From Tupaia tana (taxonomy: Eukaryota; Chordata; Mammalia; Scandentia; Tupaiidae), in NCBI GenBank assembly GCA_026018925.1, contig JAKSZU010000013.1:248001-312000 (forward strand): 64,000 bases of DNA, given 5' to 3'. The notes below the pieces were generated by a model. The model was not told the DNA's origin. It saw nothing but the letters and a program-made list of their open reading frames with translations, and made no database searches. Of the stretch, positions 7,231-56,028 are shown piece by piece. How positions within the stretch are numbered: the stretch's first letter is position 1; the number at the start of each line of letters is the position of its first letter. Both the position numbers and the translations under genes were made by a program.

Positions 7231-7717
7231 CGGTGCATTGCATGCCGTGCGAAATACCTAGTTTGCAGGAGCTATGAGGAATCTTCTTCTGAAGGCCTGG
7301 CCTCTCCTGCCTGGGTGGGAGGACCAGAGAGGATTATTAACAAGATAAAAGGTGGAGCTGAGAGCAAGAGAAAAACTTTACCTTTAAAAATAAATGTAAA
7401 AAGGAAAAATGACCAAAAAAATGGGAAGACAGAAGCAGGGAGAGACAGAGACACAGAAACAGAGATAGAAGGCCAGGCTGGGGGGGCTCCCTACCACGCT
7501 AGCTTGTTTGCTGAAGGCTGAATTATCAGTAGAAAATCTTCATTTCTCTGGTACCCTGAAATACCTAGTTCACAGGAGTCATGAGGAATTTTCTTCTGAA
7601 GGCCTGCCTCTCCTGCCATGCTAGCTTGTTTGCTGGAGGCTGAATTATCAGTAGAAAACCTTCATTTTTCGTGTGCCCTGAAATACCTAGTTCACAGGAG
7701 CCATGAGGAATCTTCTC
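7231..7717 (-). repeat. 5' UTR promoter monomers of element 0
   Basis: One full old-type monomer followed, toward the 5' end, by a short unit and a truncated terminal unit. Recurrent blocks are 'cacaggagccatgagg', 'cttctgaaggcctg' and 'gctagcttgtttgctg'. The full unit contains 7,311-7,494 (184 bp). The next unit lacks this segment, joining directly at 7,616/7,617. On the minus strand the missing segment starts with GT and ends with AG. The monomers are homologous to the 340-bp and 329-bp arrays further right. Confidence 0.8.
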
Positions 7718-22309: not shown

Positions 22310-22352
22310 TTATTTATTTATTTATTTATTTGTTTATTTATTTATTTATTTT
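22310..22352. repeat. TTTA microsatellite at the 3' end of element 2
   Basis: About ten TTTA/TTTG units. This is the complement of an A-rich TAAA tail, an expanded retroelement 3' end. Confidence 0.9.
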
Positions 22353-23457
22353 TCCATCCAAAATACACTGTGTATTGGCTCAGTCATGCACATCAACATA
22401 CATGTTTTCAGCAAATAATTTTTCAATTCTTATGTCTTGTATACTTTGTTTTTTGTTTTGCCATCCTTGATTCCTTATCCCTCACCCTCTGCCATGTCCC
22501 ACCCTCCTCCCACATTGTCTCTGGTATCCATGGTTGCTTTCTATGCCTTCCCTCCCCCATTTAGTTGATTTACTAATGAACTTAATTAGTCTAAATATAT
22601 CCAATAGCTAGCACAGCTGATATATACCTATACATGAACCCAAGTCTGACTTTAGGCATAAACCCCAGTGAGTAGAATGAACATATTATAAAGTAGTACC
22701 CAGCTGGGGCTATATAGCTTACTGCAGTCATCAAATATGCATTTTTTAAAAAATTTCGATACGAACAGTTTTAACATTTTTTTTTCTCCTGCAACTTTTT
22801 TTTTTTTTAAATTACTTAGCATTCATTCCCTGAGCATCATCACAACGTACTAAATGTGGTTTCCCATCTAGAATAAACTGCATAGTGGTATAATCAAGCA
22901 TGTTATCATCAATAATATTCCATTTCTACTTTCATACATATGTATATGTATATATATGTTTTTTACCCCATGAAAGGACCCTCTGCCCTTTCCCACTCTC
23001 TTATTACACTATCTCTGCTATATACAGTTGTCTTCCACTCCTTTTTCCCCAACATCTTGTTGGCCACACAATATCATAAGTAATCTAACTACTTTCAGCA
23101 GGTAATTTCAAGAGTAGTTTTGAACAGGTAATGATATTTCCTTGAAACTTAAAGCCTAGAAACAGGTTAGTATTCTGTTCAAACAGTAGGTACATGAACC
23201 TGTCAACAGCTCAAGACAGGACAAAAATCCTTTAAAACCAGAAAACAAAACTTAGGAGAAAAGCAGCAATAATTCAGTCAAATCACAGAATGTTGTTTCA
23301 TCGGTTGTCTCATGTACTTAATCTTTCTTCTGTTAAGGTTCGATCTTCTAGATTGAATTCTGGGATATAATATTCATCTCCAAACATTGTCCCTACAATT
23401 AAGTTGCCCATTTTTGAACTCTTATTTTTGTGTGTCTGCATTTAATTTTACTGACAT

Positions 23458-24421
23458 AGGACTCCCTTAAGAACTTCTTGGAGATCCGGTCTGGTGCTGG
23501 TAAATTCTTTCAGGTTTTTTTATCTGGGAAAGTTCGTGTCTTTTCTTCCCAAATGAATGATAACCTGGCTGGGTACAGAATTCTCGGTTGAAATTGCTTT
23601 TCCCTTAATACTTTGAATATATTTTCCCATTCTCTCCTCGCTCGCATTGTTTCCAATGAGAGGTCTGCCGTTAGTCTGATAGGATACCCTTCTCTTGCCA
23701 GTCTTAGTATCTTGTCTTTGTCTGTGGTTTTGGTCAATCTGGCTATAATGTGTCTTGGAGAAGATCTTCTTGGGTTGATTCTATTTGGGGTCCTCTGTAT
23801 TTCTTGGGACTGAATCTTTGAGTGCCTCTCCAGGTTTGGAAAGTTTTCTTGCAGGATTTCATGGAATAGATTGTCAATGCCCTTATGAGTCTCTTCACCC
23901 TCTGGGATGCCTATTATCCGGATGTTTGTATGTTTAATTGTATCTAGTACTTCTCGCATATTATTCTCAAATTTTTGGGCCATTTTCTCAGTCTTTATTT
24001 TGGATTTTTCTAGGCCAGCCATTTTCTCTTCTACATCTGAAATTCTATTTTCTGTATGATCTAGTCTGCTTTTAATACTTTCAAGGGAGATTTTGACTTC
24101 TTGTATTATAGCCTTCATCTCTAACAGTTCCATCTGATTCTTTTGTAAAGTGTGAAATTCCTCTTTTAGATCTTGCATGAATTTCCTCACCTCCTGGAAC
24201 TCTTCAACTCCTTTCTCCTTCCTCTTCAGCAGTTCCTTGTCTCTCTTCTTTTCCATCTCTGTTAGCTTTGCCATTATGAATGTTCTGAATTCTTTATCAG
24301 ACATTTCCATGAATTCCCTTGAACTGTGTGTGGATGAAGAGGAGCTATCCGTTTCCCTTGGAGGAGAGGCATTTTCCTGCTTCTCCATATTTCTTGTGGT
24401 CCTGCAGCGATTTCTAGTCAT
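23458..24421 (-). pseudogene. LINE ORF1, element 2, late frameshift
   Basis: The longest surviving ORF1: 303 codons from the ATG at 24,421. Residues 1-40 are basic and Ser-rich. About 45-160 form a charged heptad-rich coiled coil. The RRM-type core holds 'IRIIGIPEGEETHKG' (about 167-181) and 'RRSSPRHIIARLTK' (about 218-231). A C-terminal domain follows. Compared with the other copies, seven codons are deleted in frame where they read 'KHQVTYK' (about position 244), which removes part of a conserved C-terminal-domain block. A 1-base loss in a T-run near 23,515 shifts the last residues. It is probably inactive. Confidence 0.92.
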
Positions 24422-24650
24422 CTGATGGATGGTCGGGTTCTTCCCAAACTTTGAAGTTCAATATGAGGGTCGGGAAGTGTGCAGAAAAGGAAGCAGAGAG
24501 AGGGAAACAATACCAATAACAGGGAAAAAAAACAGACGAGAAACAGAGAAAAGGAAGAGAAAAATTTTTGAATAAATCTAAAAAAGAAAAATTAATATTC
24601 AAAAAATTTCAGTAAAAATCAAAAATTAGAAAACCGCGCGGCGCGCTAAG

Positions 24651-25294
24651 ATCTCAGGAGCCATGGAGCAGACTGTCTCTTGAAGAAGGGCTGTTCTGGG
24701 AGGAGGAGAGGGGATTGTTAGCAAAATAAAGGCCTAGGAGGGAGGGGCCAAAGGGCCCTGTAAAACACCTCACCTTAAAAAATTCTAAAAAGCAAAAATT
24801 TTAAAAAAGACAGAGAGAGAGAGAGAGAGAGAGGTAGAGAGAGACAAAGGTTGATTCAGAGACAGGAGACTTAAAAAGGGGTTTTTCCTACCACGTGGGG
24901 TTTGTATGCTGGAGGCCCAGTTAGCAGTGGGACATCTTCCTTTCTCCCAAAATGGCTAGATCTCAGGAGCCATGGAGCAGACTGTCTCTTGAAGAAGGGC
25001 TGTTCATGTGGGGTTTGTATGCTGGAGGCCCAGTTAGCAGTGGGACATCTTCCTTTCTCCCAAAATGGCTAGATCTCAGGAGCCATGGAGCAGACTGTCT
25101 CTTGAAGAAGGGCACGCGGGATTTGTATGCTGGAGGCCCAGTTAGCAGTGGGACATCTTCCTTTCTCTCAAAATGGCTAGATCTCAGGAGCCATGGAGCA
25201 GACTGTCTCTTGAAGAAGGGCACACAGGGTTTGTATGCTGGAGGCCCAGTTAGCAGTGGGACATCTTCCTTTCTCCCAAAATGGCTAGATCTCC
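24651..25294 (-). repeat. 5' UTR monomers of element 2: one full, three spliced-type
   Basis: Unit starts ('atctcaggag') at 24,651, 24,960, 25,073 and 25,181, with the truncated end at 25,289. Lengths are 309, 113, 108 and 108 bp. The full unit contains a 196-bp segment, 24,696-24,891, which on the minus strand begins GT ('gtaggaaaaa') and ends AG after a pyrimidine stretch. The 113-bp unit lacks exactly this segment (junction 25,004/25,005). The two 108-bp units (junctions 25,112/25,113 and 25,220/25,221) fit use of a second AG 5 nt further on. Confidence 0.9.
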
Positions 25295-31326: not shown

Positions 31327-31596
31327 CTTGTGGATGGTCGACTTCGTCCCAAACTTGGAAGTTCAATCTGAGGGTTGAGGACTGTGTAGAAAAGGAAACA
31401 GAGAGAGGGAAACAAAAGCAACAACAGCAAAAAAAAAAAAAGAAAAAAAAATACAAAATGGACAACAAACAAAGAAAAAGTGAAAAAATGAAGAGACAAA
31501 CTTTCAAATAAAACTAAAAAAAGGTAAATTAATATTCAAAAAATTTCAAAAAACCCAAAAATTAGAAAACCGTGCGGCGCACAAGCGCCGCAAGAC
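31327..31596 (-). other. 5' UTR linker of element 3
   Basis: Non-repeated sequence between ORF1 and the first monomer. It has a polyadenine-rich middle and ends in a CpG-rich 'ccgtgcggcgcacaagcgcc', the counterpart of 'ccgcgcggcgcgctaag' in element 2. No coding signal. Confidence 0.75.
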
Positions 31597-31663
31597 ATGG
31601 CTAGATCACAGGAGCCATGGAGCTGGTTCTTGAAGAAGGGCTGTTCTGTTCCCTCCGCCTCTC

Positions 31664-31868
31664 CTGGGTGGGGAGTGGGAGAGGGAATTATTAACAAGAT
31701 AAAGGGCTATGTGGGGCCAACAGGCCCAGATAGATGTCTCACCTTAAACAAAATTCTAAAAAGCAAAAATTTTAAAAAAATTTAAAAAAGAGAGAGGAGT
31801 CAGAGACAGAGACAGAGCTAGAGAGAGACAATGACAGATACAGAGAGAGGAGGCCTGAATCTTCCTAC
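31664..31868 (-). other. Inferred intron within the array 1 monomer (example unit)
   Basis: On the minus strand this 205-bp segment starts 'gtaggaagattcagg' and ends 'ccctctcccactccccacccag', a good pyrimidine tract with AG. A possible branch site, 'gttaataat', lies just upstream. The short unit near 54,134 lacks exactly 205 bp and its junction is exactly the joined exons. Splicing is an inference from genomic sequence; no transcript is seen. Confidence 0.7.
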
Positions 31869-34800
31869 CACACGAGTTGTCTATACTGGAGGCTGAATTA
31901 TTAGTGGGATCTCTTCATTCCTCCGTTTCCCCCAACATGGCTAGATCACAGGAGCCATGGAGCTGGTTCTTGAAGAAGGGCTGTTCTGTTCCCTCCGCCT
32001 CTCCTGGGTGGGGAGTGGGAGAGGGAATTATTAACAAGATAAAGGGCTATGTGGGGCCAACAGGCCCAGATAGATGTCTCACCTTAAACAAAATTCTAAA
32101 AAGCAAAAATTTTAAAAAAATTTAAAAAAAGAGAGAGGAGTCAGAGACAGAGACAGAGCTAGAGAGAGACAATGACAGATACAGAGAGAGGAGGCCTGAA
32201 TCTTCCTACCACACGAGTTGTCTATACTGGAGGCTGAATTATTAGTGGGATCTCTTCATTCCTCCGTTTCCCCCAACATGGCTAGATCACAGGAGCCATG
32301 GAGCTGGTTCTTGAAGAAGGGCTGTTCTGTTCCCTCCGCCTCTCCTGGGTGGGGAGTGGGAGAGGGAATTATTAACAAGATAAAGGGCTATGTGGGGCCA
32401 ACAGGCCCAGATAGATGTCTCACCTTAAACAAAATTCTAAAAAGCAAAAATTTTAAAAAAATTTAAAAAAGAGAGAGGAGTCAGAGACAGAGACAGAGCT
32501 AGAGAGAGACAATGACAGATACAGAGAGAGGAGGCCTGAATCTTCCTACCACACGAGTTGTCTATACTGGAGGCTGAATTATTAGTGGGATCTCTTCATT
32601 CCTCCGTTTCCCCCAACATGGCTAGATCACAGGAGCCATGGAGCTGGTTCTTGAAGAAGGGCTGTTCTGTTCCCTCCGCCTCTCCTGGGTGGGGAGTGGG
32701 AGAGGGAATTATTAACAAGATAAAGGGCTATGTGGGGCCAACAGGCCCAGATAGATGTCTCACCTTAAACAAAATTCTAAAAAGCAAAAATTTTAAAAAA
32801 ATTTAAAAAAGAGAGAGGAGTCAGAGACAGAGACAGAGCTAGAGAGAGACAATGACAGATACAGAGAGAGGAGGCCTGAATCTTCCTACCACACGAGTTG
32901 TCTATACTGGAGGCTGAATTATTAGTGGGATCTCTTCATTCCTCCGTTTCCCCCAACATGGCTAGATCACAGGAGCCATGGAGCTGGTTCTTGAAGAAGG
33001 GCTGTTCTGTTCCCTCCGCCTCTCCTGGGTGGGGAGTGGGAGAGGGAATTATTAACAAGATAAAGGGCTATGTGGGGCCAACAGGCCCAGATAGATGTCT
33101 CACCTTAAACAAAATTCTAAAAAGCAAAAATTTTAAAAAAATTTAAAAAAAGAGAGAGGAGTCAGAGACAGAGACAGAGCTAGAGAGAGACAATGACAGA
33201 TACAGAGAGAGGAGGCCTGAATCTTCCTACCACACGAGTTGTCTATACTGGAGGCTGAATTATTAGTGGGATCTCTTCATTCCTCCGTTTCCCCCAACAT
33301 GGCTAGATCACAGGAGCCATGGAGCTGGTTCTTGAAGAAGGGCTGTTCTGTTCCCTCCGCCTCTCCTGGGTGGGGAGTGGGAGAGGGAATTATTAACAAG
33401 ATAAAGGGCTATGTGGGGCCAACAGGCCCAGATAGATGTCTCACCTTAAACAAAATTCTAAAAAGCAAAAATTTTAAAAAAATTTAAAAAAAGAGAGAGG
33501 AGTCAGAGACAGAGACAGAGCTAGAGAGAGACAATGACAGATACAGAGAGAGGAGGCCTGAATCTTCCTACCACACGAGTTGTCTATACTGGAGGCTGAA
33601 TTATTAGTGGGATCTCTTCATTCCTCCGTTTCCCCCAACATGGCTAGATCACAGGAGCCATGGAGCTGGTTCTTGAAGAAGGGCTGTTCTGTTCCCTCCG
33701 CCTCTCCTGGGTGGGGAGTGGGAGAGGGAATTATTAACAAGATAAAGGGCTATGTGGGGCCAACAGGCCCAGATAGATGTCTCACCTTAAACAAAATTCT
33801 AAAAAGCAAAAATTTTAAAAAAATTTAAAAAAGAGAGAGGAGTCAGAGACAGAGACAGAGCTAGAGAGAGACAATGACAGATACAGAGAGAGGAGGCCTG
33901 AATCTTCCTACCACACGAGTTGTCTATACTGGAGGCTGAATTATTAGTGGGATCTCTTCATTCCTCCGTTTCCCCCAACATGGCTAGATCACAGGAGCCA
34001 TGGAGCTGGTTCTTGAAGAAGGGCTGTTCTGTTCCCTCCGCCTCTCCTGGGTGGGGAGTGGGAGAGGGAATTATTAACAAGATAAAGGGCTATGTGGGGC
34101 CAACAGGCCCAGATAGATGTCTCACCTTAAACAAAATTCTAAAAAGCAAAAATTTTAAAAAAATTTAAAAAAGAGAGAGGAGTCAGAGACAGAGACAGAG
34201 CTAGAGAGAGACAATGACAGATACAGAGAGAGGAGGCCTGAATCTTCCTACCACACGAGTTGTCTATACTGGAGGCTGAATTATTAGTGGGATCTCTTCA
34301 TTCCTCCGTTTCCCCCAACATGGCTAGATCACAGGAGCCATGGAGCTGGTTCTTGAAGAAGGGCTGTTCTGTTCCCTCCGCCTCTCCTGGGTGGGGAGTG
34401 GGAGAGGGAATTATTAACAAGATAAAGGGCTATGTGGGGCCAACAGGCCCAGATAGATGTCTCACCTTAAACAAAATTCTAAAAAGCAAAAATTTTAAAA
34501 AAATTTAAAAAAGAGAGAGGAGTCAGAGACAGAGACAGAGCTAGAGAGAGACAATGACAGATACAGAGAGAGGAGGCCTGAATCTTCCTACCACACGAGT
34601 TGTCTATACTGGAGGCTGAATTATTAGTGGGATCTCTTCATTCCTCCGTTTCCCCCAACATGGCTAGATCACAGGAGCCATGGAGCTGGTTCTTGAAGAA
34701 GGGCTGTTCTGTTCCCTCCGCCTCTCCTGGGTGGGGAGTGGAAGAGGGAATTATTAACAAGATAAAGGGCTATGTGGGGCCAACAGGCCCAGATAGATGT

Positions 34801-37800
34801 CTCACCTTAAACAAAATTCTAAAAAGCAAAAATTTTAAAAAAATTTAAAAAAGAGAGAGGAGTCAGAGACAGAGACAGAGCTAGAGAGAGACAATGACAG
34901 ATACAGAGAGAGGAGGCCTGAATCTTCCTACCACACGAGTTGTCTATACTGGAGGCTGAATTATTAGTGGGATCTCTTCATTCCTCCGTTTCCCCCAACA
35001 TGGCTAGATCACAGGAGCCATGGAGCTGGTTCTTGAAGAAGGGCTGTTCTGTTCCCTCCGCCTCTCCTGGGTGGGGAGTGGGAGAGGGAATTATTAACAA
35101 GATAAAGGGCTATGTGGGGCCAACAGGCCCAGATAGATGTCTCACCTTAAACAAAATTCTAAAAAGCAAAAATTTTAAAAAAATTTAAAAAAGAGAGAGG
35201 AGTCAGAGACAGAGACAGAGCTAGAGAGAGACAATGACAGATACAGAGAGAGGAGGCCTGAATCTTCCTACCACACGAGTTGTCTATACTGGAGGCTGAA
35301 TTATTAGTGGGATCTCTTCATTCCTCCGTTTCCCCCAACATGGCTAGATCACAGGAGCCATGGAGCTGGTTCTTGAAGAAGGGCTGTTCTGTTCCCTCCG
35401 CCTCTCCTGGGTGGGGAGTGGGAGAGGGAATTATTAACAAGATAAAGGGCTATGTGGGGCCAACAGGCCCAGATAGATGTCTCACCTTAAACAAAATTCT
35501 AAAAAGCAAAAATTTTAAAAAAATTTAAAAAAGAGAGAGGAGTCAGAGACAGAGACAGAGCTAGAGAGAGACAATGACAGATACAGAGAGAGGAGGCCTG
35601 AATCTTCCTACCACACGAGTTGTCTATACTGGAGGCTGAATTATTAGTGGGATCTCTTCATTCCTCCGTTTCCCCCAACATGGCTAGATCACAGGAGCCA
35701 TGGAGCTGGTTCTTGAAGAAGGGCTGTTCTGTTCCCTCCGCCTCTCCTGGGTGGGGAGTGGGAGAGGGAATTATTAACAAGATAAAGGGCTATGTGGGGC
35801 CAACAGGCCCAGATAGATGTCTCACCTTAAACAAAATTCTAAAAAGCAAAAATTTTAAAAAAATTTAAAAAAAGAGAGAGGAGTCAGAGACAGAGACAGA
35901 GCTAGAGAGAGACAATGACAGATACACAGAGAGGAGGCCTGAATCTTCCTACCACACGAGTTGTCTATACTGGAGGCTGAATTATTAGTGGGATCTCTTC
36001 ATTCCTCCGTTTCCCCCAACATGGCTAGATCACAGGAGCCATGGAGCTGGTTCTTGAAGAAGGGCTGTTCTGTTCCCTCCGCCTCTCCTGGGTGGGGAGT
36101 GGGAGAGGGAATTATTAACAAGATAAAGGGCTATGTGGGGCCAACAGGCCCAGATAGATGTCTCACCTTAAACAAAATTCTAAAAAGCAAAAATTTTAAA
36201 AAAATTTAAAAAAAGAGAGAGGAGTCAGAGACAGAGACAGAGCTAGAGAGAGACAATGACAGATACAGAGAGAGGAGGCCTGAATCTTCCTACCACACGA
36301 GTTGTCTATACTGGAGGCTGAATTATTAGTGGGATCTCTTCATTCCTCCGTTTCCCCCAACATGGCTAGATCACAGGAGCCATGGAGCTGGTTCTTGAAG
36401 AAGGGCTGTTCTGTTCCCTCCGCCTCTCCTGGGTGGGGAGTGGGAGAGGGAATTATTAACAAGATAAAGGGCTATGTGGGGCCAACAGGCCCAGATAGAT
36501 GTCTCACCTTAAACAAAATTCTAAAAAGCAAAAATTTTAAAAAAATTTAAAAAAAGAGAGAGGAGTCAGAGACAGAGACAGAGCTAGAGAGAGACAATGA
36601 CAGATACAGAGAGAGGAGGCCTGAATCTTCCTACCACACGAGTTGTCTATACTGGAGGCTGAATTATTAGTGGGATCTCTTCATTCCTCCGTTTCCCCCA
36701 ACATGGCTAGATCACAGGAGCCATGGAGCTGGTTCTTGAAGAAGGGCTGTTCTGTTCCCTCCGCCTCTCCTGGGTGGGGAGTGGGAGAGGGAATTATTAA
36801 CAAGATAAAGGGCTATGTGGGGCCAACAGGCCCAGATAGATGTCTCACCTTAAACAAAATTCTAAAAAGCAAAAATTTTTAAAAAATTTAAAAAAGAGAG
36901 AGGAGTCAGAGACAGAGACAGAGCTAGAGAGAGACAATGACAGATACAGAGAGAGGAGGCCTGAATCTTCCTACCACACGAGTTGTCTATACTGGAGGCT
37001 GAATTATTAGTGGGATCTCTTCATTCCTCCGTTTCCCCCAACATGGCTAGATCACAGGAGCCATGGAGCTGGTTCTTGAAGAAGGGCTGTTCTGTTCCCT
37101 CCGCCTCTCCTGGGTGGGGAGTGGGAGAGGGAATTATTAACAAGATAAAGGGCTATGTGGGGCCAACAGGCCCAGATAGATGTCTCACCTTAAACAAAAT
37201 TCTAAAAAGCAAAAATTTTAAAAAAATTTAAAAAAGAGAGAGGAGTCAGAGACAGAGACAGAGCTAGAGAGAGACAATGACAGATACAGAGAGAGGAGGC
37301 CTGAATCTTCCTACCACACGAGTTGTCTATACTGGAGGCTGAATTATTAGTGGGATCTCTTCATTCCTCCGTTTCCCCCAACATGGCTAGATCACAGGAG
37401 CCATGGAGCTGGTTCTTGAAGAAGGGCTGTTCTGTTCCCTCCGCCTCTCCTGGGTGGGGAGTGGGAGAGGGAATTATTAACAAGATAAAGGGCTATGTGG
37501 GGCCAACAGGCCCAGATAGATGTCTCACCTTAAACAAAATTCTAAAAAGCAAAAATTTTAAAAAAATTTAAAAAAAGAGAGAGGAGTCAGAGACAGAGAC
37601 AGAGCTAGAGAGAGACAATGACAGATACAGAGAGAGGAGGCCTGAATCTTCCTACCACACGAGTTGTCTATACTGGAGGCTGAATTATTAGTGGGATCTC
37701 TTCATTCCTCCGTTTCCCCCAACATGGCTAGATCACAGGAGCCATGGAGCTGGTTCTTGAAGAAGGGCTGTTCTGTTCCCTCCGCCTCTCCTGGGTGGGG

Positions 37801-40800
37801 AGTGGGAGAGGGAATTATTAACAAGATAAAGGGCTATGTGGGGCCAACAGGCCCAGATAGATGTCTCACCTTAAACAAAATTCTAAAAAGCAAAAATTTT
37901 AAAAAAATTTAAAAAAAGAGAGAGGAGTCAGAGACAGAGACAGAGCTAGAGAGAGACAATGACAGATACACAGAGAGGAGGCCTGAATCTTCCTACCACA
38001 CGAGTTGTCTATACTGGAGGCTGAATTATTAGTGGGATCTCTTCATTCCTCCGTTTCCCCCAACATGGCTAGATCACAGGAGCCATGGAGCTGGTTCTTG
38101 AAGAAGGGCTGTTCTGTTCCCTCCGCCTCTCCTGGGTGGGGAGTGGGAGAGGGAATTATTAACAAGATAAAGGGCTATGTGGGGCCAACAGGCCCAGATA
38201 GATGTCTCACCTTAAACAAAATTCTAAAAAGCAAAAATTTTAAAAAAATTTAAAAAAAGAGAGAGGAGTCAGAGACAGAGACAGAGCTAGAGAGAGACAA
38301 TGACAGATACAGAGAGAGGAGGCCTGAATCTTCCTACCACACGAGTTGTCTATACTGGAGGCTGAATTATTAGTGGGATCTCTTCATTCCTCCGTTTCCC
38401 CCAACATGGCTAGATCACAGGAGCCATGGAGCTGGTTCTTGAAGAAGGGCTGTTCTGTTCCCTCCGCCTCTCCTGGGTGGGGAGTGGGAGAGGGAATTAT
38501 TAACAAGATAAAGGGCTATGTGGGGCCAACAGGCCCAGATAGATGTCTCACCTTAAACAAAATTCTAAAAAGCAAAAATTTTAAAAAAATTTAAAAAAGA
38601 GAGAGGAGTCAGAGACAGAGACAGAGCTAGAGAGAGACAATGACAGATACAGAGAGAGGAGGCCTGAATCTTCCTACCACACGAGTTGTCTATACTGGAG
38701 GCTGAATTATTAGTGGGATCTCTTCATTCCTCCGTTTCCCCCAACATGGCTAGATCACAGGAGCCATGGAGCTGGTTCTTGAAGAAGGGCTGTTCTGTTC
38801 CCTCCGCCTCTCCTGGGTGGGGAGTGGGAGAGGGAATTATTAACAAGATAAAGGGCTATGTGGGGCCAACAGGCCCAGATAGATGTCTCACCTTAAACAA
38901 AATTCTAAAAAGCAAAAATTTTAAAAAAATTTAAAAAAGAGAGAGGAGTCAGAGACAGAGACAGAGCTAGAGAGAGACAATGACAGATACAGAGAGAGGA
39001 GGCCTGAATCTTCCTACCACACGAGTTGTCTATACTGGAGGCTGAATTATTAGTGGGATCTCTTCATTCCTCCGTTTCCCCCAACATGGCTAGATCACAG
39101 GAGCCATGGAGCTGGTTCTTGAAGAAGGGCTGTTCTGTTCCCTCCGCCTCTCCTGGGTGGGGAGTGGGAGAGGGAATTATTAACAAGATAAAGGGCTATG
39201 TGGGGCCAACAGGCCCAGATAGATGTCTCACCTTAAACAAAATTCTAAAAAGCAAAAATTTTAAAAAAATTTAAAAAAGAGAGAGGAGTCAGAGACAGAG
39301 ACAGAGCTAGAGAGAGACAATGACAGATACAGAGAGAGGAGGCCTGAATCTTCCTACCACACGAGTTGTCTATACTGGAGGCTGAATTATTAGTGGGATC
39401 TCTTCATTCCTCCGTTTCCCCCAACATGGCTAGATCACAGGAGCCATGGAGCTGGTTCTTGAAGAAGGGCTGTTCTGTTCCCTCCGCCTCTCCTGGGTGG
39501 GGAGTGGGAGAGGGAATTATTAACAAGATAAAGGGCTATGTGGGGCCAACAGGCCCAGATAGATGTCTCACCTTAAACAAAATTCTAAAAAGCAAAAATT
39601 TTAAAAAAATTTAAAAAAGAGAGAGGAGTCAGAGACAGAGACAGAGCTAGAGAGAGACAATGACAGATACAGAGAGAGGAGGCCTGAATCTTCCTACCAC
39701 ACGAGTTGTCTATACTGGAGGCTGAATTATTAGTGGGATCTCTTCATTCCTCCGTTTCCCCCAACATGGCTAGATCACAGGAGCCATGGAGCTGGTTCTT
39801 GAAGAAGGGCTGTTCTGTTCCCTCCGCCTCTCCTGGGTGGGGAGTGGGAGAGGGAATTATTAACAAGATAAAGGGCTATGTGGGGCCAACAGGCCCAGAT
39901 AGATGTCTCACCTTAAACAAAATTCTAAAAAGCAAAAATTTTAAAAAAATTTAAAAAAGAGAGAGGAGTCAGAGACAGAGACAGAGCTAGAGAGAGACAA
40001 TGACAGATACAGAGAGAGGAGGCCTGAATCTTCCTACCACACGAGTTGTCTATACTGGAGGCTGAATTATTAGTGGGATCTCTTCATTCCTCCGTTTCCC
40101 CCAACATGGCTAGATCACAGGAGCCATGGAGCTGGTTCTTGAAGAAGGGCTGTTCTGTTCCCTCCGCCTCTCCTGGGTGGGGAGTGGGAGAGGGAATTAT
40201 TAACAAGATAAAGGGCTATGTGGGGCCAACAGGCCCAGATAGATGTCTCACCTTAAACAAAATTCTAAAAAGCAAAAATTTTAAAAAAATTTAAAAAAGA
40301 GAGAGGAGTCAGAGACAGAGACAGAGCTAGAGAGAGACAATGACAGATACAGAGAGAGGAGGCCTGAATCTTCCTACCACACGAGTTGTCTATACTGGAG
40401 GCTGAATTATTAGTGGGATCTCTTCATTCCTCCGTTTCCCCCAACATGGCTAGATCACAGGAGCCATGGAGCTGGTTCTTGAAGAAGGGCTGTTCTGTTC
40501 CCTCCGCCTCTCCTGGGTGGGGAGTGGGAGAGGGAATTATTAACAAGATAAAGGGCTATGTGGGGCCAACAGGCCCAGATAGATGTCTCACCTTAAACAA
40601 AATTCTAAAAAGCAAAAATTTTAAAAAAATTTAAAAAAGAGAGAGGAGTCAGAGACAGAGACAGAGCTAGAGAGAGACAATGACAGATACAGAGAGAGGA
40701 GGCCTGAATCTTCCTACCACACGAGTTGTCTATACTGGAGGCTGAATTATTAGTGGGATCTCTTCATTCCTCCGTTTCCCCCAACATGGCTAGATCACAG

Positions 40801-43800
40801 GAGCCATGGAGCTGGTTCTTGAAGAAGGGCTGTTCTGTTCCCTCCGCCTCTCCTGGGTGGGGAGTGGGAGAGGGAATTATTAACAAGATAAAGGGCTATG
40901 TGGGGCCAACAGGCCCAGATAGATGTCTCACCTTAAACAAAATTCTAAAAAGCAAAAATTTTAAAAAAATTTAAAAAAAGAGAGAGGAGTCAGAGACAGA
41001 GACAGAGCTAGAGAGAGACAATGACAGATACAGAGAGAGGAGGCCTGAATCTTCCTACCACACGAGTTGTCTATACTGGAGGCTGAATTATTAGTGGGAT
41101 CTCTTCATTCCTCCGTTTCCCCCAACATGGCTAGATCACAGGAGCCATGGAGCTGGTTCTTGAAGAAGGGCTGTTCTGTTCCCTCCGCCTCTCCTGGGTG
41201 GGGAGTGGGAGAGGGAATTATTAACAAGATAAAGGGCTATGTGGGGCCAACAGGCCCAGATAGATGTCTCACCTTAAACAAAATTCTAAAAAGCAAAAAT
41301 TTTAAAAAAATTTAAAAAAAGAGAGAGGAGTCAGAGACAGAGACAGAGCTAGAGAGAGACAATGACAGATACAGAGAGAGGAGGCCTGAATCTTCCTACC
41401 ACACGAGTTGTCTATACTGGAGGCTGAATTATTAGTGGGATCTCTTCATTCCTCCGTTTCCCCCAACATGGCTAGATCACAGGAGCCATGGAGCTGGTTC
41501 TTGAAGAAGGGCTGTTCTGTTCCCTCCGCCTCTCCTGGGTGGGGAGTGGGAGAGGGAATTATTAACAAGATAAAGGGCTATGTGGGGCCAACAGGCCCAG
41601 ATAGATGTCTCACCTTAAACAAAATTCTAAAAAGCAAAAATTTTAAAAAAATTTAAAAAAGAGAGAGGAGTCAGAGACAGAGACAGAGCTAGAGAGAGAC
41701 AATGACAGATACAGAGAGAGGAGGCCTGAATCTTCCTACCACACGAGTTGTCTATACTGGAGGCTGAATTATTAGTGGGATCTCTTCATTCCTCCGTTTC
41801 CCCCAACATGGCTAGATCACAGGAGCCATGGAGCTGGTTCTTGAAGAAGGGCTGTTCTGTTCCCTCCGCCTCTCCTGGGTGGGGAGTGGGAGAGGGAATT
41901 ATTAACAAGATAAAGGGCTATGTGGGGCCAACAGGCCCAGATAGATGTCTCACCTTAAACAAAATTCTAAAAAGCAAAAATTTTAAAAAAATTTAAAAAA
42001 GAGAGAGGAGTCAGAGACAGAGACAGAGCTAGAGAGAGACAATGACAGATACAGAGAGAGGAGGCCTGAATCTTCCTACCACACGAGTTGTCTATACTGG
42101 AGGCTGAATTATTAGTGGGATCTCTTCATTCCTCCGTTTCCCCCAACATGGCTAGATCACAGGAGCCATGGAGCTGGTTCTTGAAGAAGGGCTGTTCTGT
42201 TCCCTCCGCCTCTCCTGGGTGGGGAGTGGGAGAGGGAATTATTAACAAGATAAAGGGCTATGTGGGGCCAACAGGCCCAGATAGATGTCTCACCTTAAAC
42301 AAAATTCTAAAAAGCAAAAATTTTAAAAAAATTTAAAAAAGAGAGAGGAGTCAGAGACAGAGACAGAGCTAGAGAGAGACAATGACAGATACAGAGAGAG
42401 GAGGCCTGAATCTTCCTACCACACGAGTTGTCTATACTGGAGGCTGAATTATTAGTGGGATCTCTTCATTCCTCCGTTTCCCCCAACATGGCTAGATCAC
42501 AGGAGCCATGGAGCTGGTTCTTGAAGAAGGGCTGTTCTGTTCCCTCCGCCTCTCCTGGGTGGGGAGTGGGAGAGGGAATTATTAACAAGATAAAGGGCTA
42601 TGTGGGGCCAACAGGCCCAGATAGATGTCTCACCTTAAACAAAATTCTAAAAAGCAAAAATTTTAAAAAAATTTAAAAAAGAGAGAGGAGTCAGAGACAG
42701 AGACAGAGCTAGAGAGAGACAATGACAGATACAGAGAGAGGAGGCCTGAATCTTCCTACCACACGAGTTGTCTATACTGGAGGCTGAATTATTAGTGGGA
42801 TCTCTTCATTCCTCCGTTTCCCCCAACATGGCTAGATCACAGGAGCCATGGAGCTGGTTCTTGAAGAAGGGCTGTTCTGTTCCCTCCGCCTCTCCTGGGT
42901 GGGGAGTGGAAGAGGGAATTATTAACAAGATAAAGGGCTATGTGGGGCCAACAGGCCCAGATAGATGTCTCACCTTAAACAAAATTCTAAAAAGCAAAAA
43001 TTTTAAAAAAATTTAAAAAAGAGAGAGGAGTCAGAGACAGAGACAGAGCTAGAGAGAGACAATGACAGATACAGAGAGAGGAGGCCTGAATCTTCCTACC
43101 ACACGAGTTGTCTATACTGGAGGCTGAATTATTAGTGGGATCTCTTCATTCCTCCGTTTCCCCCAACATGGCTAGATCACAGGAGCCATGGAGCTGGTTC
43201 TTGAAGAAGGGCTGTTCTGTTCCCTCCGCCTCTCCTGGGTGGGGAGTGGGAGAGGGAATTATTAACAAGATAAAGGGCTATGTGGGGCCAACAGGCCCAG
43301 ATAGATGTCTCACCTTAAACAAAATTCTAAAAAGCAAAAATTTTAAAAAAATTTAAAAAAGAGAGAGGAGTCAGAGACAGAGACAGAGCTAGAGAGAGAC
43401 AATGACAGATACAGAGAGAGGAGGCCTGAATCTTCCTACCACACGAGTTGTCTATACTGGAGGCTGAATTATTAGTGGGATCTCTTCATTCCTCCGTTTC
43501 CCCCAACATGGCTAGATCACAGGAGCCATGGAGCTGGTTCTTGAAGAAGGGCTGTTCTGTTCCCTCCGCCTCTCCTGGGTGGGGAGTGGGAGAGGGAATT
43601 ATTAACAAGATAAAGGGCTATGTGGGGCCAACAGGCCCAGATAGATGTCTCACCTTAAACAAAATTCTAAAAAGCAAAAATTTTAAAAAAATTTAAAAAA
43701 GAGAGAGGAGTCAGAGACAGAGACAGAGCTAGAGAGAGACAATGACAGATACAGAGAGAGGAGGCCTGAATCTTCCTACCACACGAGTTGTCTATACTGG

Positions 43801-46800
43801 AGGCTGAATTATTAGTGGGATCTCTTCATTCCTCCGTTTCCCCCAACATGGCTAGATCACAGGAGCCATGGAGCTGGTTCTTGAAGAAGGGCTGTTCTGT
43901 TCCCTCCGCCTCTCCTGGGTGGGGAGTGGGAGAGGGAATTATTAACAAGATAAAGGGCTATGTGGGGCCAACAGGCCCAGATAGATGTCTCACCTTAAAC
44001 AAAATTCTAAAAAGCAAAAATTTTAAAAAAATTTAAAAAAGAGAGAGGAGTCAGAGACAGAGACAGAGCTAGAGAGAGACAATGACAGATACACAGAGAG
44101 GAGGCCTGAATCTTCCTACCACACGAGTTGTCTATACTGGAGGCTGAATTATTAGTGGGATCTCTTCATTCCTCCGTTTCCCCCAACATGGCTAGATCAC
44201 AGGAGCCATGGAGCTGGTTCTTGAAGAAGGGCTGTTCTGTTCCCTCCGCCTCTCCTGGGTGGGGAGTGGGAGAGGGAATTATTAACAAGATAAAGGGCTA
44301 TGTGGGGCCAACAGGCCCAGATAGATGTCTCACCTTAAACAAAATTCTAAAAAGCAAAAATTTTAAAAAAATTTAAAAAAGAGAGAGGAGTCAGAGACAG
44401 AGACAGAGCTAGAGAGAGACAATGACAGATACAGAGAGAGGAGGCCTGAATCTTCCTACCACACGAGTTGTCTATACTGGAGGCTGAATTATTAGTGGGA
44501 TCTCTTCATTCCTCCGTTTCCCCCAACATGGCTAGATCACAGGAGCCATGGAGCTGGTTCTTGAAGAAGGGCTGTTCTGTTCCCTCCGCCTCTCCTGGGT
44601 GGGGAGTGGGAGAGGGAATTATTAACAAGATAAAGGGCTATGTGGGGCCAACAGGCCCAGATAGATGTCTCACCTTAAACAAAATTCTAAAAAGCAAAAA
44701 TTTTAAAAAAATTTAAAAAAGAGAGAGGAGTCAGAGACAGAGACAGAGCTAGAGAGAGACAATGACAGATACAGAGAGAGGAGGCCTGAATCTTCCTACC
44801 ACACGAGTTGTCTATACTGGAGGCTGAATTATTAGTGGGATCTCTTCATTCCTCCGTTTCCCCCAACATGGCTAGATCACAGGAGCCATGGAGCTGGTTC
44901 TTGAAGAAGGGCTGTTCTGTTCCCTCCGCCTCTCCTGGGTGGGGAGTGGGAGAGGGAATTATTAACAAGATAAAGGGCTATGTGGGGCCAACAGGCCCAG
45001 ATAGATGTCTCACCTTAAACAAAATTCTAAAAAGCAAAAATTTTAAAAAAATTTAAAAAAAGAGAGAGGAGTCAGAGACAGAGACAGAGCTAGAGAGAGA
45101 CAATGACAGATACAGAGAGAGGAGGCCTGAATCTTCCTACCACACGAGTTGTCTATACTGGAGGCTGAATTATTAGTGGGATCTCTTCATTCCTCCGTTT
45201 CCCCCAACATGGCTAGATCACAGGAGCCATGGAGCTGGTTCTTGAAGAAGGGCTGTTCTGTTCCCTCCGCCTCTCCTGGGTGGGGAGTGGGAGAGGGAAT
45301 TATTAACAAGATAAAGGGCTATGTGGGGCCAACAGGCCCAGATAGATGTCTCACCTTAAACAAAATTCTAAAAAGCAAAAATTTTAAAAAAATTTAAAAA
45401 AAGAGAGAGGAGTCAGAGACAGAGACAGAGCTAGAGAGAGACAATGACAGATACAGAGAGAGGAGGCCTGAATCTTCCTACCACACGAGTTGTCTATACT
45501 GGAGGCTGAATTATTAGTGGGATCTCTTCATTCCTCCGTTTCCCCCAACATGGCTAGATCACAGGAGCCATGGAGCTGGTTCTTGAAGAAGGGCTGTTCT
45601 GTTCCCTCCGCCTCTCCTGGGTGGGGAGTGGGAGAGGGAATTATTAACAAGATAAAGGGCTATGTGGGGCCAACAGGCCCAGATAGATGTCTCACCTTAA
45701 ACAAAATTCTAAAAAGCAAAAATTTTAAAAAAATTTAAAAAAAGAGAGAGGAGTCAGAGACAGAGACAGAGCTAGAGAGAGACAATGACAGATACAGAGA
45801 GAGGAGGCCTGAATCTTCCTACCACACGAGTTGTCTATACTGGAGGCTGAATTATTAGTGGGATCTCTTCATTCCTCCGTTTCCCCCAACATGGCTAGAT
45901 CACAGGAGCCATGGAGCTGGTTCTTGAAGAAGGGCTGTTCTGTTCCCTCCGCCTCTCCTGGGTGGGGAGTGGGAGAGGGAATTATTAACAAGATAAAGGG
46001 CTATGTGGGGCCAACAGGCCCAGATAGATGTCTCACCTTAAACAAAATTCTAAAAAGCAAAAATTTTAAAAAAATTTAAAAAAAGAGAGAGGAGTCAGAG
46101 ACAGAGACAGAGCTAGAGAGAGACAATGACAGATACAGAGAGAGGAGGCCTGAATCTTCCTACCACACGAGTTGTCTATACTGGAGGCTGAATTATTAGT
46201 GGGATCTCTTCATTCCTCCGTTTCCCCCAACATGGCTAGATCACAGGAGCCATGGAGCTGGTTCTTGAAGAAGGGCTGTTCTGTTCCCTCCGCCTCTCCT
46301 GGGTGGGGAGTGGGAGAGGGAATTATTAACAAGATAAAGGGCTATGTGGGGCCAACAGGCCCAGATAGATGTCTCACCTTAAACAAAATTCTAAAAAGCA
46401 AAAATTTTAAAAAAATTTAAAAAAGAGAGAGGAGTCAGAGACAGAGACAGAGCTAGAGAGAGACAATGACAGATACAGAGAGAGGAGGCCTGAATCTTCC
46501 TACCACACGAGTTGTCTATACTGGAGGCTGAATTATTAGTGGGATCTCTTCATTCCTCCGTTTCCCCCAACATGGCTAGATCACAGGAGCCATGGAGCTG
46601 GTTCTTGAAGAAGGGCTGTTCTGTTCCCTCCGCCTCTCCTGGGTGGGGAGTGGGAGAGGGAATTATTAACAAGATAAAGGGCTATGTGGGGCCAACAGGC
46701 CCAGATAGATGTCTCACCTTAAACAAAATTCTAAAAAGCAAAAATTTTAAAAAAATTTAAAAAAAGAGAGAGGAGTCAGAGACAGAGACAGAGCTAGAGA

Positions 46801-49800
46801 GAGACAATGACAGATACAGAGAGAGGAGGCCTGAATCTTCCTACCACACGAGTTGTCTATACTGGAGGCTGAATTATTAGTGGGATCTCTTCATTCCTCC
46901 GTTTCCCCCAACATGGCTAGATCACAGGAGCCATGGAGCTGGTTCTTGAAGAAGGGCTGTTCTGTTCCCTCCGCCTCTCCTGGGTGGGGAGTGGGAGAGG
47001 GAATTATTAACAAGATAAAGGGCTATGTGGGGCCAACAGGCCCAGATAGATGTCTCACCTTAAACAAAATTCTAAAAAGCAAAAATTTTAAAAAAATTTA
47101 AAAAAAGAGAGAGGAGTCAGAGACAGAGACAGAGCTAGAGAGAGACAATGACAGATACACAGAGAGGAGGCCTGAATCTTCCTACCACACGAGTTGTCTA
47201 TACTGGAGGCTGAATTATTAGTGGGATCTCTTCATTCCTCCGTTTCCCCCAACATGGCTAGATCACAGGAGCCATGGAGCTGGTTCTTGAAGAAGGGCTG
47301 TTCTGTTCCCTCCGCCTCTCCTGGGTGGGGAGTGGGAGAGGGAATTATTAACAAGATAAAGGGCTATGTGGGGCCAACAGGCCCAGATAGATGTCTCACC
47401 TTAAACAAAATTCTAAAAAGCAAAAATTTTAAAAAAATTTAAAAAAGAGAGAGGAGTCAGAGACAGAGACAGAGCTAGAGAGAGACAATGACAGATACAG
47501 AGAGAGGAGGCCTGAATCTTCCTACCACACGAGTTGTCTATACTGGAGGCTGAATTATTAGTGGGATCTCTTCATTCCTCCGTTTCCCCCAACATGGCTA
47601 GATCACAGGAGCCATGGAGCTGGTTCTTGAAGAAGGGCTGTTCTGTTCCCTCCGCCTCTCCTGGGTGGGGAGTGGGAGAGGGAATTATTAACAAGATAAA
47701 GGGCTATGTGGGGCCAACAGGCCCAGATAGATGTCTCACCTTAAACAAAATTCTAAAAAGCAAAAATTTTAAAAAAATTTAAAAAAAGAGAGAGGAGTCA
47801 GAGACAGAGACAGAGCTAGAGAGAGACAATGACAGATACACAGAGAGGAGGCCTGAATCTTCCTACCACACGAGTTGTCTATACTGGAGGCTGAATTATT
47901 AGTGGGATCTCTTCATTCCTCCGTTTCCCCCAACATGGCTAGATCACAGGAGCCATGGAGCTGGTTCTTGAAGAAGGGCTGTTCTGTTCCCTCCGCCTCT
48001 TCTGGGTGGGGAGTGGGAGAGGGAATTATTAACAAGATAAAGGGCTATGTGGGGCCAACAGGCCCAGATAGATGTCTCACCTTAAACAAAATTCTAAAAA
48101 GCAAAAATTTTAAAAAAATTTAAAAAAAGAGAGAGGAGTCAGAGACAGAGACAGAGCTAGAGAGAGACAATGACAGATACAGAGAGAGGAGGCCTGAATC
48201 TTCCTACCACACGAGTTGTCTATACTGGAGGCTGAATTATTAGTGGGATCTCTTCATTCCTCCGTTTCCCCCAACATGGCTAGATCACAGGAGCCATGGA
48301 GCTGGTTCTTGAAGAAGGGCTGTTCTGTTCCCTCCGCCTCTCCTGGGTGGGGAGTGGGAGAGGGAATTATTAACAAGATAAAGGGCTATGTGGGGCCAAC
48401 AGGCCCAGATAGATGTCTCACCTTAAACAAAATTCTAAAAAGCAAAAATTTTAAAAAAATTTAAAAAAAGAGAGAGGAGTCAGAGACAGAGACAGAGCTA
48501 GAGAGAGACAATGACAGATACAGAGAGAGGAGGCCTGAATCTTCCTACCACACGAGTTGTCTATACTGGAGGCTGAATTATTAGTGGGATCTCTTCATTC
48601 CTCCGTTTCCCCCAACATGGCTAGATCACAGGAGCCATGGAGCTGGTTCTTGAAGAAGGGCTGTTCTGTTCCCTCCGCCTCTCCTGGGTGGGGAGTGGGA
48701 GAGGGAATTATTAACAAGATAAAGGGCTATGTGGGGCCAACAGGCCCAGATAGATGTCTCACCTTAAACAAAATTCTAAAAAGCAAAAATTTTAAAAAAA
48801 TTTAAAAAAAGAGAGAGGAGTCAGAGACAGAGACAGAGCTAGAGAGAGACAATGACAGATACAGAGAGAGGAGGCCTGAATCTTCCTACCACACGAGTTG
48901 TCTATACTGGAGGCTGAATTATTAGTGGGATCTCTTCATTCCTCCGTTTCCCCCAACATGGCTAGATCACAGGAGCCATGGAGCTGGTTCTTGAAGAAGG
49001 GCTGTTCTGTTCCCTCCGCCTCTCCTGGGTGGGGAGTGGGAGAGGGAATTATTAACAAGATAAAGGGCTATGTGGGGCCAACAGGCCCAGATAGATGTCT
49101 CACCTTAAACAAAATTCTAAAAAGCAAAAATTTTAAAAAAATTTAAAAAAGAGAGAGGAGTCAGAGACAGAGACAGAGCTAGAGAGAGACAATGACAGAT
49201 ACAGAGAGAGGAGGCCTGAATCTTCCTACCACACGAGTTGTCTATACTGGAGGCTGAATTATTAGTGGGATCTCTTCATTCCTCCGTTTCCCCCAACATG
49301 GCTAGATCACAGGAGCCATGGAGCTGGTTCTTGAAGAAGGGCTGTTCTGTTCCCTCCGCCTCTCCTGGGTGGGGAGTGGGAGAGGGAATTATTAACAAGA
49401 TAAAGGGCTATGTGGGGCCAACAGGCCCAGATAGATGTCTCACCTTAAACAAAATTCTAAAAAGCAAAAATTTTAAAAAAATTTAAAAAAGAGAGAGGAG
49501 TCAGAGACAGAGACAGAGCTAGAGAGAGACAATGACAGATACAGAGAGAGGAGGCCTGAATCTTCCTACCACACGAGTTGTCTATACTGGAGGCTGAATT
49601 ATTAGTGGGATCTCTTCATTCCTCCGTTTCCCCCAACATGGCTAGATCACAGGAGCCATGGAGCTGGTTCTTGAAGAAGGGCTGTTCTGTTCCCTCCGCC
49701 TCTCCTGGGTGGGGAGTGGGAGAGGGAATTATTAACAAGATAAAGGGCTATGTGGGGCCAACAGGCCCAGATAGATGTCTCACCTTAAACAAAATTCTAA

Positions 49801-52800
49801 AAAGCAAAAATTTTAAAAAAATTTAAAAAAGAGAGAGGAGTCAGAGACAGAGACAGAGCTAGAGAGAGACAATGACAGATACAGAGAGAGGAGGCCTGAA
49901 TCTTCCTACCACACGAGTTGTCTATACTGGAGGCTGAATTATTAGTGGGATCTCTTCATTCCTCCGTTTCCCCCAACATGGCTAGATCACAGGAGCCATG
50001 GAGCTGGTTCTTGAAGAAGGGCTGTTCTGTTCCCTCCGCCTCTCCTGGGTGGGGAGTGGGAGAGGGAATTATTAACAAGATAAAGGGCTATGTGGGGCCA
50101 ACAGGCCCAGATAGATGTCTCACCTTAAACAAAATTCTAAAAAGCAAAAATTTTAAAAAAATTTAAAAAAAGAGAGAGGAGTCAGAGACAGAGACAGAGC
50201 TAGAGAGAGACAATGACAGATACAGAGAGAGGAGGCCTGAATCTTCCTACCACACGAGTTGTCTATACTGGAGGCTGAATTATTAGTGGGATCTCTTCAT
50301 TCCTCCGTTTCCCCCAACATGGCTAGATCACAGGAGCCATGGAGCTGGTTCTTGAAGAAGGGCTGTTCTGTTCCCTCCGCCTCTCCTGGGTGGGGAGTGG
50401 GAGAGGGAATTATTAACAAGATAAAGGGCTATGTGGGGCCAACAGGCCCAGATAGATGTCTCACCTTAAACAAAATTCTAAAAAGCAAAAATTTTAAAAA
50501 AATTTAAAAAAAGAGAGAGGAGTCAGAGACAGAGACAGAGCTAGAGAGAGACAATGACAGATACAGAGAGAGGAGGCCTGAATCTTCCTACCACACGAGT
50601 TGTCTATACTGGAGGCTGAATTATTAGTGGGATCTCTTCATTCCTCCGTTTCCCCCAACATGGCTAGATCACAGGAGCCATGGAGCTGGTTCTTGAAGAA
50701 GGGCTGTTCTGTTCCCTCCGCCTCTTCTGGGTGGGGAGTGGGAGAGGGAATTATTAACAAGATAAAGGGCTATGTGGGGCCAACAGGCCCAGATAGATGT
50801 CTCACCTTAAACAAAATTCTAAAAAGCAAAAATTTTAAAAAAATTTAAAAAAAGAGAGAGGAGTCAGAGACAGAGACAGAGCTAGAGAGAGACAATGACA
50901 GATACAGAGAGAGGAGGCCTGAATCTTCCTACCACACGAGTTGTCTATACTGGAGGCTGAATTATTAGTGGGATCTCTTCATTCCTCCGTTTCCCCCAAC
51001 ATGGCTAGATCACAGGAGCCATGGAGCTGGTTCTTGAAGAAGGGCTGTTCTGTTCCCTCCGCCTCTCCTGGGTGGGGAGTGGGAGAGGGAATTATTAACA
51101 AGATAAAGGGCTATGTGGGGCCAACAGGCCCAGATAGATGTCTCACCTTAAACAAAATTCTAAAAAGCAAAAATTTTAAAAAAATTTAAAAAAAGAGAGA
51201 GGAGTCAGAGACAGAGACAGAGCTAGAGAGAGACAATGACAGATACAGAGAGAGGAGGCCTGAATCTTCCTACCACACGAGTTGTCTATACTGGAGGCTG
51301 AATTATTAGTGGGATCTCTTCATTCCTCCGTTTCCCCCAACATGGCTAGATCACAGGAGCCATGGAGCTGGTTCTTGAAGAAGGGCTGTTCTGTTCCCTC
51401 CGCCTCTCCTGGGTGGGGAGTGGGAGAGGGAATTATTAACAAGATAAAGGGCTATGTGGGGCCAACAGGCCCAGATAGATGTCTCACCTTAAACAAAATT
51501 CTAAAAAGCAAAAATTTTAAAAAAATTTAAAAAAAGAGAGAGGAGTCAGAGACAGAGACAGAGCTAGAGAGAGACAATGACAGATACAGAGAGAGGAGGC
51601 CTGAATCTTCCTACCACACGAGTTGTCTATACTGGAGGCTGAATTATTAGTGGGATCTCTTCATTCCTCCGTTTCCCCCAACATGGCTAGATCACAGGAG
51701 CCATGGAGCTGGTTCTTGAAGAAGGGCTGTTCTGTTCCCTCCGCCTCTCCTGGGTGGGGAGTGGGAGAGGGAATTATTAACAAGATAAAGGGCTATGTGG
51801 GGCCAACAGGCCCAGATAGATGTCTCACCTTAAACAAAATTCTAAAAAGCAAAAATTTTAAAAAAATTTAAAAAAAGAGAGAGGAGTCAGAGACAGAGAC
51901 AGAGCTAGAGAGAGACAATGACAGATACAGAGAGAGGAGGCCTGAATCTTCCTACCACACGAGTTGTCTATACTGGAGGCTGAATTATTAGTGGGATCTC
52001 TTCATTCCTCCGTTTCCCCCAACATGGCTAGATCACAGGAGCCATGGAGCTGGTTCTTGAAGAAGGGCTGTTCTGTTCCCTCCGCCTCTCCTGGGTGGGG
52101 AGTGGGAGAGGGAATTATTAACAAGATAAAGGGCTATGTGGGGCCAACAGGCCCAGATAGATGTCTCACCTTAAACAAAATTCTAAAAAGCAAAAATTTT
52201 AAAAAAATTTAAAAAAAGAGAGAGGAGTCAGAGACAGAGACAGAGCTAGAGAGAGACAATGACAGATACAGAGAGAGGAGGCCTGAATCTTCCTACCACA
52301 CGAGTTGTCTATACTGGAGGCTGAATTATTAGTGGGATCTCTTCATTCCTCCGTTTCCCCCAACATGGCTAGATCACAGGAGCCATGGAGCTGGTTCTTG
52401 AAGAAGGGCTGTTCTGTTCCCTCCGCCTCTCCTGGGTGGGGAGTGGGAGAGGGAATTATTAACAAGATAAAGGGCTATGTGGGGCCAACAGGCCCAGATA
52501 GATGTCTCACCTTAAACAAAATTCTAAAAAGCAAAAATTTTAAAAAAATTTAAAAAAAGAGAGAGGAGTCAGAGACAGAGACAGAGCTAGAGAGAGACAA
52601 TGACAGATACAGAGAGAGGAGGCCTGAATCTTCCTACCACACGAGTTGTCTATACTGGAGGCTGAATTATTAGTGGGATCTCTTCATTCCTCCGTTTCCC
52701 CCAACATGGCTAGATCACAGGAGCCATGGAGCTGGTTCTTGAAGAAGGGCTGTTCTGTTCCCTCCGCCTCTCCTGGGTGGGGAGTGGGAGAGGGAATTAT

Positions 52801-54999: not shown

Positions 55000-55017
55000 A
55001 AAATTAAAAAAAAAGAC

Positions 55018-55062
<45 letters not shown>

Positions 55063-55669: not shown

Positions 55670-55706
<37 letters not shown>

Positions 55707-55993: not shown

Positions 55994-56028
<35 letters not shown>

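Follow-up and report, generated by a model that had tools for sequence, protein, structure and literature searches.

Apparent exon-intron promoter monomers in a half-L1-like family of Tupaia tana, with copies apparently derived from spliced RNA

One insertion of an L1-type element in the 64-kb window (the whole stretch of DNA analysed here) carries 5'UTR units of 309, 113, 108 and 108 bp, sizes that were given in the preliminary description and borne out when the layout was read from the 5' end, on the minus strand. The question that this locus raises is how units so unequal in length arose. Judging from their sequence, each promoter repeat resembles an exon followed by an intron, and many copies of the element seem to have been written into DNA from spliced RNA. 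Splicing would then have altered the promoter of the element again and again, and in some cases eliminated it.

The insertions and the monomers of element 2

The window contains four ORF1-bearing L1-type insertions, all on the minus strand: E0, E1, E2 and E3, whose target-site duplications measure 15, 15, 14 and 16 bp, respectively. Past a 100-N gap lies an additional monomer array (array B). Element 2 (E2) is a genuine insertion, as its 14-bp duplication (AAGAATTAGGAAGA, at 25,295-25,308 and 22,296-22,309) and its (TAAA)n tail attest, and its insertion site is the 5' region of E1, an older relative. The elements share the layout of a monomeric L1 5'UTR, and it is the layout only that is compared here: tandem units in the promoter region, then a partial unit and a tether, then ORF1. 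In a Pfam scan of the ORF1 frames, the L1 RNA-binding domain expected of a half-L1 (PF02994) was found in E0, E1 and E2, and PF17490 in E0 and E2; E3 has no single long ORF1 frame in the stretch translated. In E0 and E2, ORF1 and the 3' duplication lie about 2 kb apart, which is shorter than an L1 ORF2, and it is on this shortage of space that we regard the family as probably ORF1-only and half-L1-like. Bao and Jurka (2010, cited in PMC4859970) reportedly described elements called HAL1 or half-L1 that possess ORF1 without ORF2. By that description the present family resembles them, and it was presumably mobilised in trans. The window had no matches when scanned against Rfam and for tRNAs, and an exon word had 0 matches in the viral contigs scanned. 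A GC-rich hairpin at the border of the last partial monomer and the tether is strong in E3 (31540-31600; -17.1 kcal/mol, z -3.4), less so in E0 (7200-7260; z -1.5) and unsupported in E2 (z 0.05). The 3' part of E3 has two 452-bp stretches (28457-28908 and 29353-29804) that are 96% identical.

Table 1. Features of the window; exon and intron names are putative, and a slash within letters marks a junction
Feature	Position	Strand	Remarks
E0 retained 184-nt intron	7311..7494	-	
E0 first exon	7617..7717	-	older family; read as spliced, GCTAGCATG/GCAGGAGAGG
Element 2 (E2)	22310..25294	-	probably ORF1-only L1-type insertion: monomer 5'UTR, tether, ORF1 and 3' region
E2 ORF1 frame	23510..24421	-	L1 RNA-binding and dsRBD-like domains (PF02994, PF17490)
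E2 tether acceptor CAAAG/TTTGGGAAGAACCC	24448..24450	-	identical junction in copies L083, L088 and L090
E2 partial last monomer	24649..24695	-	cut ahead of the donor and joined to the tether
E2 retained 196-nt intron	24696..24891	-	donor CACGTG/GTAGGA, branch-like TGCTAAC, pyrimidine tract, CCCAG
E2 113-nt exon of the full 309-bp unit	24892..25004	-	
E2 108-nt exon	25005..25112	-	3' junction 25,005/25,004 is first-AG; with the following AACAG, 113-bp period
E2 108-bp short unit	25113..25220	-	second-AG junction 25,113/25,112 at 3' end
E2 first (partial) exon unit	25221..25294	-	3' end is second-AG (108-type) junction 25,221/25,220
Array A (5'UTR of E3)	31595..54253	-	66 full 340/341-bp monomers and 1 short unit
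E3 first exon	54135..54254	-	read as spliced, CTCGCGTG/GAGAGGCGG, at the family's own AG
Array B	55000..64000	-	25 full monomers of ~330 bp and 3 short; junctions 61,146/61,145, 61,595/61,594 and 63,013/63,012, all CATG/AACAG

When the three short junctions of E2 were split-aligned to the full unit, each had two equally good placements 1 nt apart, one of which is GT...AG, confirming that the 196-bp segment has the GT-AG ends on the sense strand that had been described for it. The donor is the one given in Table 1, and the acceptor is TTTTGCTAACAATCCCCTCTCCTCCTCCCAG/AACAG/CCC, i.e. two AGs sit 5 nt apart, which accounts for units of 113 and of 108 bp; as had been proposed, both 108-type junctions use the second AG. 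The possible branch site and the pyrimidine tract ahead of the AG are present as well. Two earlier statements need amendment: the full unit minus 196 bp is nearly, and not exactly, the 113-bp unit, since one base at the donor side differs (CACATG versus CACGTG, over 101 nt aligned), and the claim that LINE promoter monomers hold a GT-AG intron stands as to the GT-AG junctions, the element in question being probably ORF1-only and half-L1-like. The last exon bases ahead of the junction differ among the E2 units within 24892-25294 (CCCCACGTG, CCCCACATG, TCCCGCGTG and CCCTGTGTG), mostly at would-be CpG positions, which in our reading looks as if they had been methylated after insertion.

The splice sites of all four monomer families were scored with a splice-site matrix. 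By this matrix, the first AG of E2, which is the one used, is the best of the 18 AGs in the unit and the second AG is the fourth, while the donor used is second among 11 GTs; the acceptor used ranks first in arrays A and B and third of 22 in E0, and the donor used is only second-best in all four families. What outscores that donor in every family, by the same matrix, is an intronic donor-like AAGGTGAG (AAGGTAAA in E0) within 24696-24891 and its homologues. No splice product from AAGGTGAG was found in the 101 sources searched, and use of this stronger donor was rejected on that account, the single match to a looser pattern, at locus L004, being read as a point change in the donor.

Junctions in other monomer families and in the host genome

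Units of the window were tallied by an exon word, save the first unit of E2, which has no such anchor word and was read directly. Full units number 66 in array A, 25 in array B and one each in E0, E2 and E1 (that of E1 interrupted by an inserted repeat), and there are eight short junctions, three in E2, three in array B and one each in E3 and E0. In all eight, which come from four divergent monomer families, the GT-AG of the junction's own family is among the two or three equivalent best placements. The acceptors of E3 and E0 are their own family's AG (CCCACCCAG/GAGAGG and CCCACCCAG/GCAGG), at positions that differ from that of E2. Under uniform random deletion the five junction types would have a joint probability of about 2e-12, provided that they are independent, in agreement with the earlier argument that such deletion is unlikely to give GT-AG ends and a matching second acceptor. 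Two of the junctions in array B (B.1 and B.2) share a 1-nt change on the donor side and may represent one event.

E3 is flanked by 16-bp repeats at 54,255-54,270 and 28,229-28,244, making it a single insertion about 26 kb long, and the 66 monomers of its array A vary at just 5 of 341 columns. The array probably expanded after E3 had inserted; the longest promoter in a mouse survey has 28 monomers (PMC2176070, accessible text).

The host genome (2.95 Gb) was searched for the exon end followed by the exon start with any 0-30 bases between them, a pattern that had 3,859 matches, compared with 0 for its reversed control. According to the preliminary description, junctions scattering off the GT and AG positions would speak against splicing; among the matches listed (100 of the 3,859), 98 lie on the first AG (92, of which a few differ in a base next to the junction) or the second (6), and the remaining two, both in an exon-only array of contig C18, hold one extra G. 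The gap classes counted were 0-30, 31-61 and 124-154. The 31-61 class has 82 matches, and all 70 of those given with letters are the A-type junction of another monomer family, exact or slightly changed. The 2,555 matches with gaps of 124-154 were considered as a deletion class and rejected, the listed places being two successive short units. None of these counts of short units equals a number of splicing events, because short units can be inherited.

The array of C18 (L009-L032, from 20,637 to near the contig's end) is a tandem array of 113-bp exon-only units and was apparently born from spliced monomers. At L006 and L007 (C1197, near 97.26 Mb) there are long arrays that mix short and full monomers, with similar blocks repeated in a satellite-like fashion.

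Order of units, tether junctions and 5' ends

The layout of copies was read at 40 loci picked for having a short unit, one for each place listed on contigs C111, C220 and C231 (C18 was left out). Short units lie 5' and full units 3' in 29 of them, including L050, where an ordinary deletion has cut the intron and joined it to the tether; in eight others, short units are followed by a tether splice. The other three are L034 (short-short-tether), L046 (a complex array) and L051, in our reading a tether-spliced element interrupted by the insertion of a short-full element. A strict short-then-full order in 29 loci would have a chance probability of 4e-16 under independence of the copies, which holds only in part, and exceptions to the order occur in L034, L046, L080 and L098.

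In the tether-spliced class the monomer donor is joined to an AG just ahead of ORF1. At one acceptor position the junction reads TG/ATTGAACTTCC, TG/TTTGAACTTCC or TG/ACTGAACTTCC, and its other forms are TG/TTTGGGAAG and TG/AAACCGACC or AAACTGACC. Unspliced relatives have an AG directly ahead of each of these, the exception being L048, whose junction TG/TTCGGG matches no AG seen in unspliced tethers. Copies with the E2-type tether, in which CCCTCAG/ATTGAAC has become CCCTCAT, use the next AG, CAAAG/TTTGGG. The ATTGAAC form of the junction has 308 exact matches genome-wide, and L042, a tether-spliced copy, ends in an A-rich tail and is flanked by a 15-bp target-site duplication.

To avoid selecting for splicing, copies were also chosen by their ORF1: among 2,209 candidates 40 places were scored, of which one is E2, 26 were read and 13 were left out. 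Seventeen of the 26 contain a splice junction, 11 of them being tether-spliced (8 ATTGAAC, 3 TTTGGG) and 6 spliced otherwise; 8 are unspliced and one, L086, is an old copy with a deletion. Since these copies are 98-99% like E2 in ORF1, the sample speaks for one young group. The third exon end of L094, which runs into the tether, was not scored as a splice, and L098 is rearranged near the tether. Five of the six spliced copies outside the tether-spliced class still hold an intron. In the 25 copies that remain when L086 is dropped, a monomer acceptor was used by 9 of 14 upstream donors versus 2 of 25 last donors (Fisher p 4e-4; p 0.02 with the tether-spliced copies excluded), which suggests that the intron of the last monomer is in most cases not removed by splicing to a monomer acceptor. 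The last monomer of E0-E3 is partial and has no donor, which fits exon definition, and selection or inheritance could contribute to the retention.

The 5' ends of 43 elements (the 40 layout loci plus L003, L005 and L008) were placed on the monomer, with a comparison that reached 15 nt into the intron: 35 fall inside the exon, eight on the last 2-4 nt ahead of it and none deeper. They span -4 to +59 of the first exon base, with 8 at -4 to -2, 11 at +21, 11 at +38 to +42 and the rest between or beyond these, the placements of L055 and L060 being based on poor alignments. Each of E0-E3 begins with one G that is missing from its internal copy, as in the first exon unit of E2 (E1 was compared with the copy in E0), and an extra 5' G is what one expects from reverse transcription of the cap (PMC4859970, accessible text). 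With 5' ends at or just after the intron end, the intron sits just upstream of the next start, and it is probably promoter DNA.

A mechanism, its alternatives and known L1 splicing

Taken as a whole, the evidence makes it very likely that the monomers are exon-intron cassettes, the transcripts of which were spliced and the products reverse-transcribed into the genome. Each 5'UTR monomer would be a non-coding exon of 113-135 nt followed by a GT-AG intron of 184-214 nt, in tandem, with RNA polymerase starting at or just after the intron end. The DNA upstream of each inner start would then be the intron of the previous monomer, which for this reason probably holds promoter sequence. In transcripts from an upstream monomer, a monomer donor would be joined to either the first or the second AG in a monomer further along, or alternatively the last donor to the AG just ahead of ORF1, and capped spliced RNAs would be reverse-transcribed into short units or tether-less copies. 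The acceptor of the last monomer would usually be passed over since the partial last exon lacks a donor, as exon definition predicts. What can be read directly are the junctions and their agreement with the AGs of the respective family, the target-site duplications and the 5' ends, and from them we infer that the spliceosome made the deletions. The original proposal, that 5'UTR transcripts spanning several monomers are spliced and then reverse-transcribed, thus gains support from the junctions, and it can be extended, as tether acceptors seem to be reached too and the last intron is mostly kept.

One may also consider that slippage or unequal exchange within a tandem array deleted DNA and so left the short units, with GT-AG ends by coincidence. 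Arrays do change as DNA, as seen in the near-identical monomers of array A and the exon-only 113-bp array of C18, and two deletions that are not of the splice type were met, in L050 and L086. Nevertheless, with just two or three equivalent placements per break, GT-AG ends in four families with acceptors at partly non-homologous positions, tether junctions on AGs that track subfamily changes and a joint null as small as that given above, we regard this explanation as very improbable. It is even harder to believe that the 113-bp unit came first and was later enlarged by insertion of the 196-bp segment: both unit lengths do coexist in arrays, but the segment is present and alignable in the full units of all four families, old E0 included, and short exons match the full exons of their own element (1.2% divergence within an element, versus 7.6% between short exons of different loci).

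A different matter is how often splicing took place. It might have occurred once or a few times per subfamily, with later copies inheriting their short units from a spliced master, i.e. splicing would be rare and its products successful. In favour of this, the short-then-full layout recurs and, in a comparison of 29 elements, the own full exon was closer than the nearest short exon elsewhere in 7, the two tied in 16 and the foreign exon was closer in 6. Yet first-AG and second-AG units are mixed within single elements (E2, L005, L046, L055, L059, L067 and L070), splice products exist in four monomer families, and tether-spliced copies, in which no fewer than three acceptor positions occur (one with 308 matches in the genome), would be unlikely masters because they are without intron and tether. 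On balance we consider such inheritance from few spliced masters rather doubtful as the full account. Repeated splicing, as the cassette mechanism has it, seems clear across monomer families; within young families it is no more than likely, given the ties and the closer foreign exons just mentioned.

In human L1, 5'UTR splicing has been described as a rare dead end (PMC5860796, accessible text). Here it is conceivable, and we offer this tentatively, that a promoter unit built as an exon-intron cassette makes splicing an inheritance switch, with spliced copies as the majority product and not rare accidents. RNA that keeps the last intron would found promoter-bearing copies, whereas RNA spliced to the ORF1 acceptor would found sterile ones, and the missing donor of the truncated last monomer would shield the promoter intron by denying exon definition. 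Loss of the promoter, and with it a dead end, may be expected for the tether-spliced copies. Short-unit junctions stand at thousands of genomic places, nearly all of those looked at (100 of the 3,859) being of the splice type, and the layout with short units first and the last intron kept ties the survival of the promoter to the choice of splice site. This would give a natural, countable readout of splicing limiting or shaping a mobile element, and would offer one route by which monomer arrays could contract, give rise to exon-only repeats and be deprived of promoters.

Neither a monomer described as an exon-intron cassette nor a family in which most copies are spliced was found in the accessible open-licence literature. 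The closest monomeric system is mouse L1, in which splice sites lie within the monomers (PMC2176070), with predicted donors at cognate monomer positions and acceptors in M1 and the tether (Belancio 2006, cited in PMC9022269), and in which 22 copies were possibly made by splicing (cited in PMC9022269). It is like the present family in having a monomeric 5'UTR with such sites; the accessible text of these two sources mentions neither an intron in each monomer nor short monomers of exon size, so that the two are set apart by description, not by sequence. In human L1, spliced integrated retrotransposed elements (SpIREs; Larson et al. 2018) make up about 2% of full-length copies, and as in the present case they involve GT-AG removal within the 5'UTR or from the 5'UTR to ORF1, followed by retrotransposition, with alternative acceptors and loss of promoter sequence (PMC5860796, accessible text). 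GT-AG deletions within the 5'UTR are found here too, as are a duplication and an A-rich tail, the hallmarks of retrotransposition, in E0-E3 and L042. SpIREs derive from an autonomous L1 with ORF1 and ORF2, and E0-E3 have no room for ORF2, so that the present copies work like a SpIRE but are not filed as one. They also differ in frequency, with 17 of 26 ORF1-chosen copies spliced as against about 2%, and in that every monomer here seems to be an exon-intron cassette, whereas the word 'monomer' is absent from the main text of PMC5860796. Thus, L1 5'UTR splicing followed by retrotransposition is already known in human (PMC5860796) and has been suggested for mouse (PMC9022269), as far as the accessible texts go; what is new relative to human SpIREs is the exon-intron monomer.
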